Origin: Myxococcales bacterium
Lineage (GTDB): Bacteria; Myxococcota_A; UBA9042
Direction of reading: 5' to 3'
Assembly (NCBI GenBank): GCA_009692425.1
Contig: SHZF01000002.1
Coordinates: 62,001 to 126,000, forward strand
Length of the DNA: 64,000 bases
Position 1 is the first letter of the stretch; every line of letters begins with the position of its first letter. The translations under genes and the position numbers were made by a program. Positions 16,680-49,430 of this stretch are shown here, one piece after another. The notes beneath the pieces are model-generated. The model was given only the letters and a program-made list of their open reading frames with translations, was not told the DNA's origin and made no database searches.

Positions 16680-17324
16680 TCAGGGCAGGGTGTCCGCCGT
16701 CGAGGGTCCCGCCAGCGCCGCCAGCGCATCCGCACCGTGCCGACCGAGCGACAGTTCGACCTCGATCCGAAACACCTCGTGGCGCGGGGCAGGCCGGCCG
16801 GCTGTCGGCCGCTGGCAGTCGGCGCCGCCGAGTTCGCCCACGCTCTCTGCATCCCACTGCAATTCACCCTCTGAGCGCAACAGCGGGAACGTCGCACAAT
16901 CGAACGGCTTCAGTCCCGGCCACCCCAGCCCCAGCCGCTCGCTCGCCACCTGCAGCGCACAGCGCCAGTCGGCCATCAGCAGCACACAGCGCGGGGCGTT
17001 GGCCAACTCGGGCCGATCGATAAGTGCGGTCGGGATGCCCACGCCCGCCGGAAAGTCTGGATGTTCCCACGTCTCGTCGCCGAACCACTGGTCGGGATCC
17101 GTGCAACCGGGCTGCAAGAGCGGGATCACGTCAGCCGCGTGCGCCAGAATGCGCTGGGCCTGGTGGACATCGACCCAGATGCCGTTCGAGCAACACGCGG
17201 CGTGGCACTCGTCGATGCGGCAGCGCTCGCCCCGGGCCGGGTCGAACAGGGCCGGATCGACGCGCACGGTCTCGGCGCGGCGGCCCTGGATGGCGTGGGC
17301 GTCGAGCCGCGAGAGTTCACTCAT
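16680..17324 (-). CDS. Cysteine-cluster protein, YkgJ/DUF3109-like
   Basis: 214 residues starting at ATG 17324 behind a good AGGAGA. The N-terminal half carries ERCRIDECHAACCSNGIWVD, and further Cys residues (PGC, RCVLL, WRC, CATF) complete a likely metal- or cluster-binding set typical of the YkgJ/DUF3109 group. It is predicted cytosolic, with no signal or membrane segment. It is divergently transcribed from pckA, which is separated by 174 bases. The biochemical role of the family is not settled; binding of zinc or an Fe-S cluster is inferred from the cysteines. Confidence 0.75.
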   Translation of the reverse strand: MSELSRLDAHAIQGRRAETVRVDPALFDPARGERCRIDECHAACCSNGIWVDVHQAQRILAHAADVIPLLQPGCTDPDQWFGDETWEHPDFPAGVGIPTALIDRPELANAPRCVLLMADWRCALQVASERLGLGWPGLKPFDCATFPLLRSEGELQWDAESVGELGGADCQRPTAGRPAPRHEVFRIEVELSLGRHGADALAALAGPSTADTLP

Positions 17325-17437
17325 CGTTCAGTCTCCTATGGCGAGGCAGCGTACGGTCGGGCTCGCGCAGGCGCAAGATGGCCCCTGTGTCTCCTGCACA
17401 GCGCGACCGCACGTGCGGCACCGGACCGATTTTGGAC

Positions 17438-17466
17438 TCGACACATCCACCCCCGCCTCCTACACT
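17438..17466 (+). promoter_or_regulatory. Predicted sigma70-type promoter of pckA
   Basis: TCGACA (17438-17443) and TACACT (17461-17466) are 17 bases apart. The -10 ends 32 bases before the pckA ATG, which is also preceded by CCAGGAG at 17485-17491. Confidence 0.55.
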
Positions 17467-17498
17467 CCCGCGCCCCAACCACCGCCAGGAGCCCGCCC

Positions 17499-19088
17499 AT
17501 GACCGCCAGTCAACACGGCCTCGACCACCACGGCCTGCAACCCTCGGGCCGCGTCCACTGGAACGAAGACGGGCCGACCTTGCTGGAGCACGCCATCCGC
17601 CGCAGCGAAGGGCGGCTTACGGCCCACGGCGCGTTCGTGGCGTTGACAGCTCCGCGCACCGGCCGCTCGCCCAACGACAAGTTCGTCGTGCAAGAGCCTG
17701 GCAGCCAAGACCGCATCTGGTGGGGCAAATTCAACCGGCCGACCACGCCTGCGGTGTTCGCGGCGATGCTCGGCAAGGTGCAGGCCTACCTGTCGGAGCG
17801 TCCGGAGCTTTTCGTGCAGGACCTTCACGTCGGCGCCGACCCCGCCGCCCAGATGCCGCTGCGCGTCGTGACCGAGAACGCGTGGCACGCTGCGTTTGCG
17901 CGCAACATGTTCATCCGGCCGGCGGCCGACCGTCTTGCAGGCCATGTGCCTGAATTCACGGTGCTCCACACCCCGCACCTGCAGGCTGCCGGCAAGGCCG
18001 ACGGCGTGAATTCGGAAGCGTTCGCGCTCCTCGATTTCGACCGCAAGCTGATCCTGATCGGTGGCACGAAGTACGCCGGCGAAGTGAAGAAGTCGATCTT
18101 CACGGTGATGAACTACCTGTGCCCGCTCCAGGGAATCCTGCCGATGCACTGCTCGTCCAACGTGAAAGGCGACAACACCGCGATCTTCTTCGGCCTGTCG
18201 GGCACCGGCAAGACGACGCTGTCGGCGGACCCGAGCCGCGGCCTCATCGGCGACGACGAGCACGGCTGGGGCGACAGCGGCGTGTTCAACTTCGAGGGCG
18301 GTTGCTACGCCAAGATGATCAACCTGTCGCCTGAGGCCGAGCCGGACATCTTCGCGACCTCCCGGCGGTTCGGCACCATCCTCGAAAACGTGAAGTTGGA
18401 CGACCAGCGGGTGCCGGACTTCTACGATTCGAGCATCGCGGAGAACAGTCGCGGATCATATCCAGTTGATTTCATTGCCAACAACGTGCCGTCAGGGCGC
18501 GGTGGCCACCCGCAGAACGTCATCTTCCTGACCGCCGACGCGTTCGGCGTCCTGCCGCCGGTGGCGCGCCTGACGCCCGATCAGGCCGCGTACCACTTCA
18601 TCAGCGGCTATACGGCGAAGGTGGCGGGCACCGAGGTCGGCGTGACGGAGCCGCAGCCGAACTTCTCAGCGTGCTTCGGCGGGCCGTTCATGCCGATGCA
18701 TCCTTCGGTATACGCCGAGCTGCTGATGAAGAAGATGACGCAGCACGGCAGCCAGGCGTGGCTCATCTCGACGGGCTGGACCGGCGGGCCGTACGGCGTC
18801 GGCAAGCGGATGTCGATCCAGCACACGCGCACGCTGCTCAACGCGGTGCTCGACGGCTCGCTCGCCAACGTGGTGTTCCGCAAGGACCCACGCTTTGGCT
18901 TCGAGGTGCCAACGGCGTGCCCGGGCGTGCCCGCCGAAGTGCTCGACGCGCGCGCGACGTGGACCGACAAGGACGCCTACGACCGCTGCGCCGACAAGTT
19001 GGCCCGCATGTTCGGCGAGAACTTCCAGCAGTTTGCCGGGGGCTGCTCGGATGCCGTCAACAGCGCGGCCCCGCAGGCCGTCGGATGA
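17499..19088 (+). CDS. pckA: Phosphoenolpyruvate carboxykinase (ATP)
   Basis: 529 residues from ATG 17499 with CCAGGAG eight bases upstream. It has the ATP-type PEPCK signatures: RSPNDKF near the N-terminus, GGTKYAGEVKKS, the P-loop GLSGTGKTT from residue 232, and GDDEHGWG for metal binding. The enzyme converts oxaloacetate and ATP to PEP and CO2, the first committed step of gluconeogenesis, in the cytosol. The length matches the family's 520-540. The stop codon overlaps the ATG of the next gene (ATGA), so the MYXO-CTERM-like protein is translationally coupled to this housekeeping enzyme. Confidence 0.97.
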   Translation: MTASQHGLDHHGLQPSGRVHWNEDGPTLLEHAIRRSEGRLTAHGAFVALTAPRTGRSPNDKFVVQEPGSQDRIWWGKFNRPTTPAVFAAMLGKVQAYLSERPELFVQDLHVGADPAAQMPLRVVTENAWHAAFARNMFIRPAADRLAGHVPEFTVLHTPHLQAAGKADGVNSEAFALLDFDRKLILIGGTKYAGEVKKSIFTVMNYLCPLQGILPMHCSSNVKGDNTAIFFGLSGTGKTTLSADPSRGLIGDDEHGWGDSGVFNFEGGCYAKMINLSPEAEPDIFATSRRFGTILENVKLDDQRVPDFYDSSIAENSRGSYPVDFIANNVPSGRGGHPQNVIFLTADAFGVLPPVARLTPDQAAYHFISGYTAKVAGTEVGVTEPQPNFSACFGGPFMPMHPSVYAELLMKKMTQHGSQAWLISTGWTGGPYGVGKRMSIQHTRTLLNAVLDGSLANVVFRKDPRFGFEVPTACPGVPAEVLDARATWTDKDAYDRCADKLARMFGENFQQFAGGCSDAVNSAAPQAVG

Positions 19089-45617: not shown

Positions 45618-46253
45618 TCACTCGCAGACGAGACCGCAGTGCTTGGCGGCGAGGCTCACGCAGCCCGGCTTCGGCGGCGCCTCGACCACGAAGCACAGGT
45701 TGCCGCCGGCGCCCGTGGCCGGGACGCACGCATCGATGCTGCACGGATTGTTGTCGTTGCAGTCGAGCTGCGGTTGCGCCGGTTTGCAGGCGCCGCCCGC
45801 GCACTTGGCGAAAAGGGTGCACTTGTTGCCGTCGTCGCAGGTGCCGCTGCTGTCTGCGTGCGTGCAGCCCAACGCGGCAGTACAGGAGTCGAGCGTGCAA
45901 CGATTGCCGTCATTGCAATCGGGCTGCGCGCCGCCAGCCTGGCACGCCATGTCGGCACACTTGTTGCCGACCGTGCACCCGTTGCCATCGCTGCACGTCA
46001 CCGCCCCGGACAACGGCGTTGCCACGCACCGCCCAGGTCGCAGTACCACGAGCCGGCCCAGAGGTTGGCAACTCCTTGCGCGCCCACATCGAGCGCGGGG
46101 GAACCCGTGTCGGTGGCGGTGTTGGCCGGTGGCCTTGCACATGCCGCGGCGCAGGACACCCCAGTGACGAGAGCCGGAGTCCAGTTGTGCGCCCAACTGT
46201 TGCCTATGCTCGCCCGGACTGGCTGGATGCGTCGTCTGCCAACGGCGCCCGAC
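45618..46253 (-). pseudogene. Cys-rich repeat protein remnant 2 (one-base frameshift)
   Basis: The minus-strand frame ending at 45618 reads CSDGNGCTVGNKC, CNDGNRCTLDSCTAALGC, CDDGNKCTLFAKC and CNDNNPCSIDACVPATG, the same modules as the intact lipoprotein at 27648. Further upstream the coding sense moves to another frame (GAQGVANLWAGSWYCDLGG); one lost base near 46028-46032 joins them as WYCDLGG-CVAT. No signal peptide or start remains between this and the PFKFB-like gene. It is a decayed 5'-truncated fragment, or a sequencing indel within one. Confidence 0.65.
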
Positions 46254-46256
46254 AGT

Positions 46257-47492
46257 CTACTCGGCCTCGATCGCCAGCGCATGGCGCCGCTCCACATATC
46301 CGTACGGCGCCGGGACCAGTTCGATCAGCGTGTGCAACGGCACTTCCACAAAGGGCGCCCGTTCGCGCGGCAGGTCCATGAAATAAGAGTACAACGCCCG
46401 CAGCACCGCCTGGTGGGCGACGATGACTACGGGTCTGCGCTGCCGCTCGCACTCGATGATCACGGGCTCGAGCCTTTCAATTACGTCCTCATAGCTCTCG
46501 CCGCGCGGGTAGCGGTAGCGCAGCTTGTCCTTGCGGCGGGCCGCGTACTCGTCGGGCATGCGCTCGGCGATCTCCCGATAGGTCAGGCCATCGCAGACGC
46601 CGGCATCGATTTCGTCGAGCGCCCGCCAAGGCATCGCCGGCACCGCCAGCGGTGCACACGTCGCGATCGTGCGCCGCAGTGTGCTGCACCAGACGACCGG
46701 TGGCTCCATCGCCTGGCGCCGCACGAATCGCGCCAGTTGCGCGGCGTAGCGGTGCCCGCGTGGGCTGAGATCCGGGTCGCCGCCGATGCGGTCTTCGACG
46801 TTGTGGGTCGATTCGCCGTGGCGCGTCAGCCAGATCGGCCGCCGCACCACGTGCAGGTTGATCAGCAGCGACACGAGGCGCGCGGGCAGGTAGCCCTCGA
46901 TGCGGTGCAGCACGACGATGCGCCCGACGTCGATGAGCCGCACGGAACTGGCCGGCTCGTCGGCATGGACCGGCTCGTACACTTTGGCGTAGTGGTCGAT
47001 ACGCTGGCGAAAATCGCGCACTGCGTCTTCTGGATCGATCCCGGCGTAGTCGGGCGACGACAGCTTCGTCTCGCGGATGTTCGCCTCCAGGATCGACGGG
47101 TCCTCACACACGGATTCGACGAACACGACCGTACACCCTGCCGCCGAGCAGCGCGCCCGTACCTGGTCTCTACGGGAGCGGGTCGTGTTCGTGGCGTCGT
47201 AGAGTGCGACCTCGCCGCCCAACCGCATGAAGCCGAGCAGGTCGGCGAGAGCCAGTTCCGCCATTTCGGAGCGGGCACGCGCACCCTCGTCGTTGCGCGG
47301 GTCGAAGAAATCGGCGCGGTGGCCCGCACCCAGCCATTTGCGGCGGTAGTCCCCGGCGTTGAAGACTTGGGCGTTGTAGCCGAGCCACGCCAGGTAGCGC
47401 GCGATCTTGCGGGCGATCCAGGTCTTGCCGCGGGCGGGCAGGCCGACCATGCACAGCACAAGGCGCGTAGGTTCAGGGGCGGACTTCGCCAT
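46257..47492 (-). CDS. Bifunctional 6-phosphofructo-2-kinase/fructose-2,6-bisphosphatase-like (PFKFB) protein
   Basis: 411 residues from ATG 47492 behind AAAGGA. The N-terminal kinase has the P-loop GLPARGKT (17-24), VALYDATNTTRSRR and VESVCEDPSILEANIRETK. The C-terminal phosphoglycerate-mutase-like phosphatase has ITLTRHGE-type WLTRHGESTHN (His 225), DEIDAGVCDGLTY (Glu 294), YRYPRGESYEDVIERLEPV and VAHQAV (His 360). These segments follow animal and plant PFKFB closely. Those enzymes set fructose-2,6-bisphosphate, a switch between glycolysis and gluconeogenesis. Whether the bacterial protein makes that compound is inference. The start is two bases past the esterase stop. Confidence 0.88.
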   Translation of the reverse strand: MAKSAPEPTRLVLCMVGLPARGKTWIARKIARYLAWLGYNAQVFNAGDYRRKWLGAGHRADFFDPRNDEGARARSEMAELALADLLGFMRLGGEVALYDATNTTRSRRDQVRARCSAAGCTVVFVESVCEDPSILEANIRETKLSSPDYAGIDPEDAVRDFRQRIDHYAKVYEPVHADEPASSVRLIDVGRIVVLHRIEGYLPARLVSLLINLHVVRRPIWLTRHGESTHNVEDRIGGDPDLSPRGHRYAAQLARFVRRQAMEPPVVWCSTLRRTIATCAPLAVPAMPWRALDEIDAGVCDGLTYREIAERMPDEYAARRKDKLRYRYPRGESYEDVIERLEPVIIECERQRRPVVIVAHQAVLRALYSYFMDLPRERAPFVEVPLHTLIELVPAPYGYVERRHALAIEAE

Positions 47493-47494
47493 CG

Positions 47495-48352
47495 TCAGTC
47501 CTTTCGGTCTGGCAGGGATCGGGCCCAGGCCAGATCGGCGGCGCGGGCGTGCTCCATGACACGGCGCACCACCTCGCTGCCTGCCTCCGTACGCGGCAGC
47601 AGGTGGCCGACGCGGGGCAGGGAGACCGCCACCAGCCCCGGTCCCATGGACCCCGTCAATTCGGCGAGGACGGCACGGCACGGGACCGTGCGGTCCGCCG
47701 CGCCGTGCAGCGCCAGCACGGGGCACGGCAAGGGGCCGAGCCCGCGCCGCACCACATCCTGCAGGTCTTCGAGTTCAGTTACGGCATTCAATGGGATCGC
47801 GTCGTAACACGGCGGCCGCGCGGCGCCGGGCAGGTCGGGAGCGTCCTTGCCGAGCACCTCGGGCCAGCCGAGTCGGGTCAACGCCGCCGCCGCGACGCGC
47901 TGCCACCCTGGCAGGTGAAGGGCTGTGGCGAGCAGCGCAACCGACGCGAGGGGCCGCCGCGCGGGACCGCCCACCTGCGGCCGCCGGTGGCGCGCCAGCA
48001 GCAGCGCCAGCAGCGCTCCCATCGACAGCCCGCACAGGTGAATGCGGTCGCAGCGGGTGTCCAGCCACGCGAGCGCCGCGTCGGCCGACGCCAGCCAATC
48101 GCGCCACCCCGTGCCTTGCAGCGCGCGCACCGACGTCGCGTGCCCTGCCAACACCGGCAAGGCGACGCTGAACCCGTGCGTCACAAATGCGTCGGCAAGC
48201 GGGCGTACCTCCCACGGCGACCCGGTCAAGCCGTGCAGGACCAACGCACCCGCACGCCCGCCGGAGTGCGCCAGCGGCTCGGCGCCCGTCGGGCAGCGGA
48301 CGGGAACGCGCAACGCGGCCGGCAATTCCAGCAGATCGGTGGGTTCAGTCAC
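47495..48352 (-). CDS. Carboxylesterase/monoglyceride-lipase-like alpha/beta hydrolase
   Basis: 285 residues from GTG 48352. LHGLTGSPWEVRP gives the oxyanion-hole loop (40-44), CGLSMGALLA the nucleophile Ser 110, LALHGAADRTVP the acid strand and GHLLP the catalytic His. This matches the Est30-type carboxylesterases and monoglyceride lipases that hydrolyse short or medium acyl esters in the cytosol. It overlaps the methyltransferase stop by eight bases and abuts the PFKFB-like gene, so all three appear to be one operon. The link to sugar-phosphate control is not obvious. Confidence 0.88.
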   Translation of the reverse strand: MTEPTDLLELPAALRVPVRCPTGAEPLAHSGGRAGALVLHGLTGSPWEVRPLADAFVTHGFSVALPVLAGHATSVRALQGTGWRDWLASADAALAWLDTRCDRIHLCGLSMGALLALLLARHRRPQVGGPARRPLASVALLATALHLPGWQRVAAAALTRLGWPEVLGKDAPDLPGAARPPCYDAIPLNAVTELEDLQDVVRRGLGPLPCPVLALHGAADRTVPCRAVLAELTGSMGPGLVAVSLPRVGHLLPRTEAGSEVVRRVMEHARAADLAWARSLPDRKD

Positions 48353-49430
48353 GGTCGCGTGCTCCCGCCGCCGCAGCGCCCCGCCGGTGCGGGCGGCGTG
48401 CCCCTGTTCGGTGCGCCTCCACCGTCCCCGCCACCAGCCAAAGCGGGCGTCCGCCTGCGACGACCCGGACAAACAAGGCATCTTCGGCGAGCGGCAGCGT
48501 GTCCGCCGCGCTCCGGTGGGGCAACGCAAAGCCCGCGCGCCAGCCTGGGCAGTCGCGTGCCAGCACGGCTCCGAGGCGCTGGAAAGTCCGCCGTGCCGCC
48601 GCCACGCCGCCGAGGCGGTCGCCCCACGGCGGATTGCACACAACGAATGCAGGAAGAGCCGTCGGAATCGGCTGGTGTGCGACGTCCCCCGTCACCCACC
48701 GGATCGCGTGCGCCACTCCCGCCCTCTCGGCATTGCGCTGGGCCCGCGCTACGCAGTCTGGATCGATGTCGCCGGCGCACACCGGGGGACCCTGCGCGGT
48801 TGCCTTCGCACCGCACGCCGCTTCGATCGCGAGCGTGCCGCTGCCCGTCATCGGGTCCCACAGCGCGCCGTTCCCGTGCCAGCCGACCAGCCGCAACAGC
48901 GCGGCCGCCACGTCCTCCCGCAGGGGCGCCGCGCCGGGCTCCTGGCGCCAGCCGCGCCGGGCCAGCAGGCCTCCGCCGGCGTCGATCGATAGCTCCACGC
49001 GGTCGCCGTCCGCCCGCGCCAGCACCACCAACTCGCCGCGCGCACCGGTCGCGGCGCCGACCCGCGCGTCCACCGCGCTGCGGGCCCCGAGCTGGCGCAG
49101 CAGTTCGGCCTGCATCCAGCGCATGCGATCCGGCGCTGCGCCGCGGCCGCTCCACGCCAGGCGAACGGCCTCGACCGGCGCCGGCACGTCGTGCCATGGC
49201 AGCCCGTCGACGAGTTGCGCGGCGTCCGTCACCGTGCGCAGCCGGCCGACACCCGCCCGGCGCCACAAGTGTGCACAACAGCGCAAGCGTCCCGCCACCG
49301 CGACAAGGTCGGCCGGCAGCGCGCGAAACGCCACGCCACCTGGCTCCGGGCTGCCGGGGAGGCCCAGATCGCCGAGTTCGGCGCACGCAAGCCCCTCGAG
49401 GCCGGGCAACGTCGCCGCGAACCAGTGCAC
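48345..49430 (-). CDS. RlmL-like THUMP-type rRNA/tRNA methyltransferase
   Basis: 361 residues from GTG 49430, with only a weak ribosome-binding site. The N-terminal start HWFAATLPGLEGLACAELGDL matches the THUMP/RlmL opening. The middle carries RAGVGRLRTVTDAAQLV and RGWRQEPGAAPLRED. The Rossmann methylase follows, with DPMTGSGTLAIEAA for S-adenosylmethionine and the catalytic NPPWG loop, as in RlmL/Trm14-type N2-guanine methyltransferases. It is predicted cytosolic. The C-terminal tail is Ala/Arg-rich. The target (rRNA G2445 or tRNA) is inferred from family resemblance. It is the first gene of the operon. Confidence 0.85.
   Translation of the reverse strand: MHWFAATLPGLEGLACAELGDLGLPGSPEPGGVAFRALPADLVAVAGRLRCCAHLWRRAGVGRLRTVTDAAQLVDGLPWHDVPAPVEAVRLAWSGRGAAPDRMRWMQAELLRQLGARSAVDARVGAATGARGELVVLARADGDRVELSIDAGGGLLARRGWRQEPGAAPLREDVAAALLRLVGWHGNGALWDPMTGSGTLAIEAACGAKATAQGPPVCAGDIDPDCVARAQRNAERAGVAHAIRWVTGDVAHQPIPTALPAFVVCNPPWGDRLGGVAAARRTFQRLGAVLARDCPGWRAGFALPHRSAADTLPLAEDALFVRVVAGGRPLWLVAGTVEAHRTGARRPHRRGAAAAGARDRD

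Follow-up and report, generated by a model that had tools for sequence, protein, structure and literature searches.

Does a bacterium carry PFKFB?

The question raised by one gene in a 64,000-nt stretch of Myxococcales DNA (the window) is whether a signal known from eukaryotes, fructose-2,6-bisphosphate, could also be made and broken in a bacterium. In animals, plants and fungi this is done by the bifunctional 6-phosphofructo-2-kinase/fructose-2,6-bisphosphatase (PFKFB), and the metabolite serves as the main control that sets whether sugar is burned or made. In the part of PMC9721465 that cites Rider 2004, fructose-2,6-bisphosphate is described as absent from bacteria save Desulfovibrio desulfuricans. 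The literature searched, which omits most subscription journals, yielded no account of a bacterial bifunctional PFKFB, so that its absence carries little weight; on the other side, the Pfam 6PF2K model recognizes the window protein so strongly that genes of this kind must already be annotated automatically. What is new here is the head-to-head linkage of PFKFB to PFK-1 in one Myxococcota family (f17) and the phylum-wide association of PFKFB with class I fructose-1,6-bisphosphatase (FBPase).

The window protein has the fused architecture and fold of PFKFB

The preliminary description of the window had proposed that a single bacterial protein joins the kinase and the phosphatase in the manner of animal PFKFB. 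This proposal is borne out by the two Pfam domains found (Table 1), beside which there was only one weak, overlapping match to AAA_33, and by a phmmer search of all PDB chains, in which the best match was human PFKFB3, across residues 10–399 (E 2.9e-118, 46% identity). The other PFKFB isoforms followed in the ranking, and single-domain histidine phosphatases had E-values of 5e-13 or worse. The motifs named in the same description, GLPARGKT, VALYDATNTTRSRR, YRYPRGESYEDVIERLEPV and VAHQAV, were each found in the protein. The AlphaFold model (pLDDT 90.7, pTM 0.87) was compared by Foldseek with the solved structures of PFKFB1–4, giving TM-scores of 0.90–0.94 when normalized to the query, and the phosphatase domain was 51% identical to the rat liver FBPase-2 domain, with an rmsd of 0.9–1.0 Å. 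A chance match is not an issue for this protein.

Table 1. Features of the PFKFB locus, in window coordinates
Feature	Position	Strand	Residues	Basis or remark
PFKFB-type bifunctional 6-phosphofructo-2-kinase/fructose-2,6-bisphosphatase gene	46257..47492	-	411 aa	ATG start, TAG stop; ORF, Pfam, PDB search, AlphaFold, Foldseek
6PF2K kinase domain	46848..47468	-	9–215	PF01591, 229.8 bits (cut-off 27)
Walker A GLPARGKT	47421..47444	-	17–24	Alignment of bacterial sequences and PFKFB3
Histidine-phosphatase (fructose-2,6-bisphosphatase) domain	46293..46835	-	220–400	PF00300 (His_Phos_1), 141.7 bits (cut-off 21.7)
RHGE catalytic motif, presumed phospho-accepting H225	46812..46823	-	224–227	No variation at R224 or H225 among bacterial sequences and PFKFB3
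AAAGGA, Shine-Dalgarno-like, 6 nt 5′ of the PFKFB ATG	47499..47504	-		Sequence
Alpha/beta hydrolase gene, upstream operon neighbor, outside the conserved function	47495..48352	-		Inferred start GTG at 48352; the longest ORF reaches 48643
RlmL-like (UPF0020) RNA methyltransferase gene, first in the local operon	48345..49430	-		Not conserved beside PFKFB elsewhere

The window protein thus shares with animal PFKFB1–4 the domain order, the length of the catalytic core, the active-site residues that were checked, and the fold. It differs from them in being bacterial and in lacking the phosphorylatable N- and C-terminal tails: its kinase domain begins after about 8 residues, its phosphatase domain ends about 11 residues short of the C-terminus, and PFKFB3 is 520 residues long. 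Such regulatory tails belong to the animal isoforms only and do not define the PFKFB family as a whole. The stand-alone bacterial histidine phosphatases CobC, PspA and GpmB have the same branch-1 fold and the RHG motif, but they have no kinase domain, and the phosphatase domains of PFKFBs separate from them in a tree; the window protein scored far under the NCBIfam cut-offs of the CobC, PspA and GpmB-type families.

The active-site residues of both domains are retained

The ligand contacts of the fructose-6-phosphate pocket of PFKFB3 include Arg74, Arg75, Arg98, Asp124, Thr126, Arg132, Arg189 and Tyr193 (PMC3177832), and these correspond to the identical residues R50, R51, R74, D99, T101, R107, R164 and Y168 of the window protein. 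Its K143 corresponds to Lys168 of PFKFB3, which is not among the pocket contacts given in that source. On the phosphatase side, E294, Y305, R319, K323, Y334, Q361 and R365 are identical to all seven bisphosphatase-site residues given for PFKFB2 (PMC12097583), while R224, H225, N231, E294 and H360 match the catalytic RH pair, Asn259, Glu322 and His387 of PFKFB3. The Walker A residues G17, R21, G22 and K23 were kept in 101 of 101 bacterial sequences and in PFKFB3, and the position of T24 was occupied by Thr or Ser. Loss of key kinase residues in an alignment had been named beforehand as an observation that would speak against a PFKFB, and none of those checked was lost in the window protein.

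Most of the checked residues were invariant across the 101 bacterial sequences. The exceptions were Thr at Asn163 (10 sequences), Gln at Glu255 (18 sequences), a variable Gln388, and Leu at the position of PFKFB3 Arg98 in 12 homologues, mostly from Polyangiaceae (Sorangium, Polyangium, Minicystis, Byssovorax), which suggests that substrate handling or affinity may vary. Leu was seen at this position in loci L037, L039, L040, L043, L045, L049, L050, L061, L064 and L099. The occurrence of Leu in some members, together with the fact that no bacterial member with a measured activity was found in the literature searched, could suggest that the PFKFB fold was retargeted, such that the bacterial family produces and removes another 2-phosphorylated ketose phosphate, with the specificity seen in eukaryotes having arisen later. 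We regard this as unlikely, given the identity of the window residues to the fructose-6-phosphate contacts of PFKFB3 and to the bisphosphatase-site residues of PFKFB2, and given that PFKFB stands head-to-head with PFK-1 in family f17 (see below). It is instead probable, judging from these sequence comparisons, that the window gene is a genuine, tail-less bacterial PFKFB, which would control PFK and FBPase through fructose-2,6-bisphosphate.

In the window protein, arginine (R274) takes the position of PFKFB3 Ser302, as in the FBPase-2 domain of rat liver and the heart form, PFKFB2, and all 100 bacterial sequences that have a residue at this position also have Arg. Ser302 is presumably linked to the low phosphatase activity that PFKFB3 shows, and hence the arginine predicts that the bacterial enzymes are phosphatase-competent. 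A strong phosphatase would also fit a protein with a single working half in vivo, such as one that acts mostly as a phosphatase, like the monofunctional paralogues of some unicellular eukaryotes, in which such decay is established. This explanation appears quite improbable, because both sites are intact in the window protein and in about 100 homologues, while an inactive half should have lost residues in some lineages.

The gene belongs to a family spread across Myxococcota

A 6PF2K domain was found in 20 of the 22 genomes of the window's own family (in one of these as fragments only), with the two remaining genomes being 84% and 67% complete, and 83 of 379 sampled Myxococcota had a match above the cut-off. 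A scan of 84,980 GTDB species detected 287 related stretches; nearly all of the best 80 were labeled as Myxococcota, deltaproteobacteria or plain proteobacteria, and they included Sorangium cellulosum, Minicystis rosea, Polyangium and Nannocystis. A few of the best 80 were labeled as Binatota, Acidobacteriota or Rhodobacterales, and could be mislabeled bins. The window gene is therefore one member of a bacterial PFKFB family that is found across the phylum. Pairwise dN/dS values of 0.03–0.32 showed that the gene is under purifying selection. No relatives were encoded on viral contigs, and the plasmids searched gave no match.

The closest characterized proteins are all eukaryotic, which might be taken to indicate that the gene was recently acquired from a eukaryote or is a contaminant. 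This explanation, to which we assign almost no probability, is already contradicted by the presence of the gene in nearly the whole family and by the grouping of the own-family sequences with the window sequence in one clade of 18 rows with 98% SH-aLRT support. The own-family sequences are 55–68% identical to that of the window, as compared with 44–51% identity between the bacterial sequences and human PFKFB3. The gene also lies in a bacterial operon, behind a Shine-Dalgarno-like stretch, within a 174-kb contig of a 4.9-Mb genome, and its third codon positions are GC-rich. In a phosphatase-domain tree with outgroups, which had long branches and one animal sequence only, the monophyly of the bacterial sequences was not rejected (p-AU 0.71).

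PFKFB is linked to PFK-1 in one family

The examination of related loci showed that in six of the nine PFKFB-bearing genomes of family f17 (L120, L121, L122, L123, L124, L125) a PFK-1 gene stands head-to-head with PFKFB, with 37–305 nt between the first aligned codons of the divergent pair. Genus g39 accounts for five of these genomes and genus g68 for the sixth; over an 11-kb stretch the two genera have PFKFB and PFK in common but no other genes, with different genes on the flanks. In the four of the six genomes that were searched genome-wide, the adjacent PFK was the sole PFK. Given a PFK frequency of about 2 genes in 5,000 and the roughly 96 adjacent slots that were inspected, we put the probability of one such adjacency at about 4%. 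The six cases would amount to a few independent events at most, so that the linkage is supportive, but not a proof.

The head-to-head PFK contains GGDDT and PKTIDND in g39 (five of the six genomes), and GGDGT in g68. We take GGDDT followed by PKTIDND to be the signature of pyrophosphate-type PFKs, and in this respect the g39 arrangement is a functional parallel to the plant F2KP and its fructose-2,6-bisphosphate-activated pyrophosphate-dependent PFK. The window genome differs from this parallel, as its one PFK gene has GGDGT with PKTIDND, is not adjacent to PFKFB, and is nearest to ATP-dependent bacterial PFKs. This PFK is of bacterial size and any site for fructose-2,6-bisphosphate on it is putative, which was counted against its role as a target.

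PFKFB co-occurs with class I FBPase

Class I FBPase is the class that is inhibited by fructose-2,6-bisphosphate in eukaryotes. It was present in 55 of 58 PFKFB-containing Myxococcota genomes versus 24 of 58 genomes without PFKFB (Fisher p 3e-10), the latter set being non-random, as it was chosen partly by listing order. Counted by family, it was found in 12 of 13 families with PFKFB versus 10 of 24 without (p 0.004), and the sole informative contrast within a family was f21, with class I FBPase in 2/2 genomes with PFKFB and 0/7 without. Few independent lineages lie behind the association. Class II FBPase was encoded in 1 of the 58 PFKFB-containing genomes versus 10 of the 58 others. The presence of PFK itself was uninformative as a correlate (57/58 versus 56/58). 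In the window genome a single gene encodes a class I FBPase, whose closest sequences are PDB 2gq1 and animal FBPases, and hence both presumed targets of fructose-2,6-bisphosphate, PFK-1 and class I FBPase, are encoded there.

The AMP site of animal FBPase lies at the N-terminus. The class I FBPase matches in f17 and f21 begin at about profile position 5–19 rather than 1–2, which suggests a shortened or divergent N-terminus. In family f45 (G173:C122, G196:C1, G356:C1) class I FBPase and PFK are located about 3–12 kb apart on the same contig, possibly as a glycolysis/gluconeogenesis cluster. PMC12965863 makes mention of FBPase suppression.

Proposed function and its implications

In the proposed mechanism, the N-terminal P-loop kinase would convert fructose-6-phosphate and ATP into fructose-2,6-bisphosphate, and the C-terminal histidine phosphatase would return it to fructose-6-phosphate by way of a phospho-H225 intermediate. 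Because the window protein has no N- and C-terminal phosphorylation tails, the balance of the two activities is probably tuned by metabolites rather than by kinases that modify tails. The product would most likely act, in a eukaryote-like manner, on 6-phosphofructokinase and/or class I FBPase, and we infer such signaling with the support of the head-to-head PFK in other genomes and of the class I FBPase co-occurrence.

Since the same gene occurs across Myxococcota, the "eukaryotic" fructose-2,6-bisphosphate signal probably exists in bacteria too. A broader reading, to which we give an even chance on the present comparisons, is that fructose-2,6-bisphosphate is a regulatory metabolite across much of Myxococcota, with PFKFBs setting the PFK/FBPase balance, in certain lineages via a pyrophosphate-dependent PFK transcribed from the intergenic region that it shares with PFKFB, and that these PFKFBs and the eukaryotic ones descend from one fused ancestor. 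If there was such an ancestor, the fusion may predate eukaryotes or may have been donated to them. Myxococcota have also been discussed as a source of eukaryotic sterol synthesis (PMC12004948); PFKFB would be a second shared "eukaryotic" metabolic trait, which is relevant to how eukaryotic metabolism arose. The view that fructose-2,6-bisphosphate is exclusive to eukaryotes is now directly testable in cultured Sorangium, Minicystis and Polyangium.

Neighboring genes

The preliminary description had placed the PFKFB gene in an operon with an esterase and a methyltransferase. The gene spacing bears out a local operon, as the stop codon of the hydrolase gene (47495–47497) and the PFKFB start (47492) are separated by 2 nt and the methyltransferase gene overlaps the start of the hydrolase gene, but the arrangement has no counterpart elsewhere: neither partner was found near any of 80 related loci, with flanks of up to 8 kb, and no Pfam family was shared by three or more of the 60 adjacent genes sampled at 40-odd loci. 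Outside f17 there was no conserved neighbor. The operon partners were thus ruled out as functional evidence, because partners that are not conserved are uninformative about the function of PFKFB. The ATP-dependent phosphoenolpyruvate carboxykinase gene that had been pointed out in the window is real (17061–19088), but its distance of 27 kb rules it out as a gene linked to PFKFB. Downstream of PFKFB there is a short cysteine-rich ORF (45618–46196, minus strand) with a 43-bit match to Dicty_CTDC, a slime-mold repeat, and similar ORFs are also present in L023, L024 and L064.
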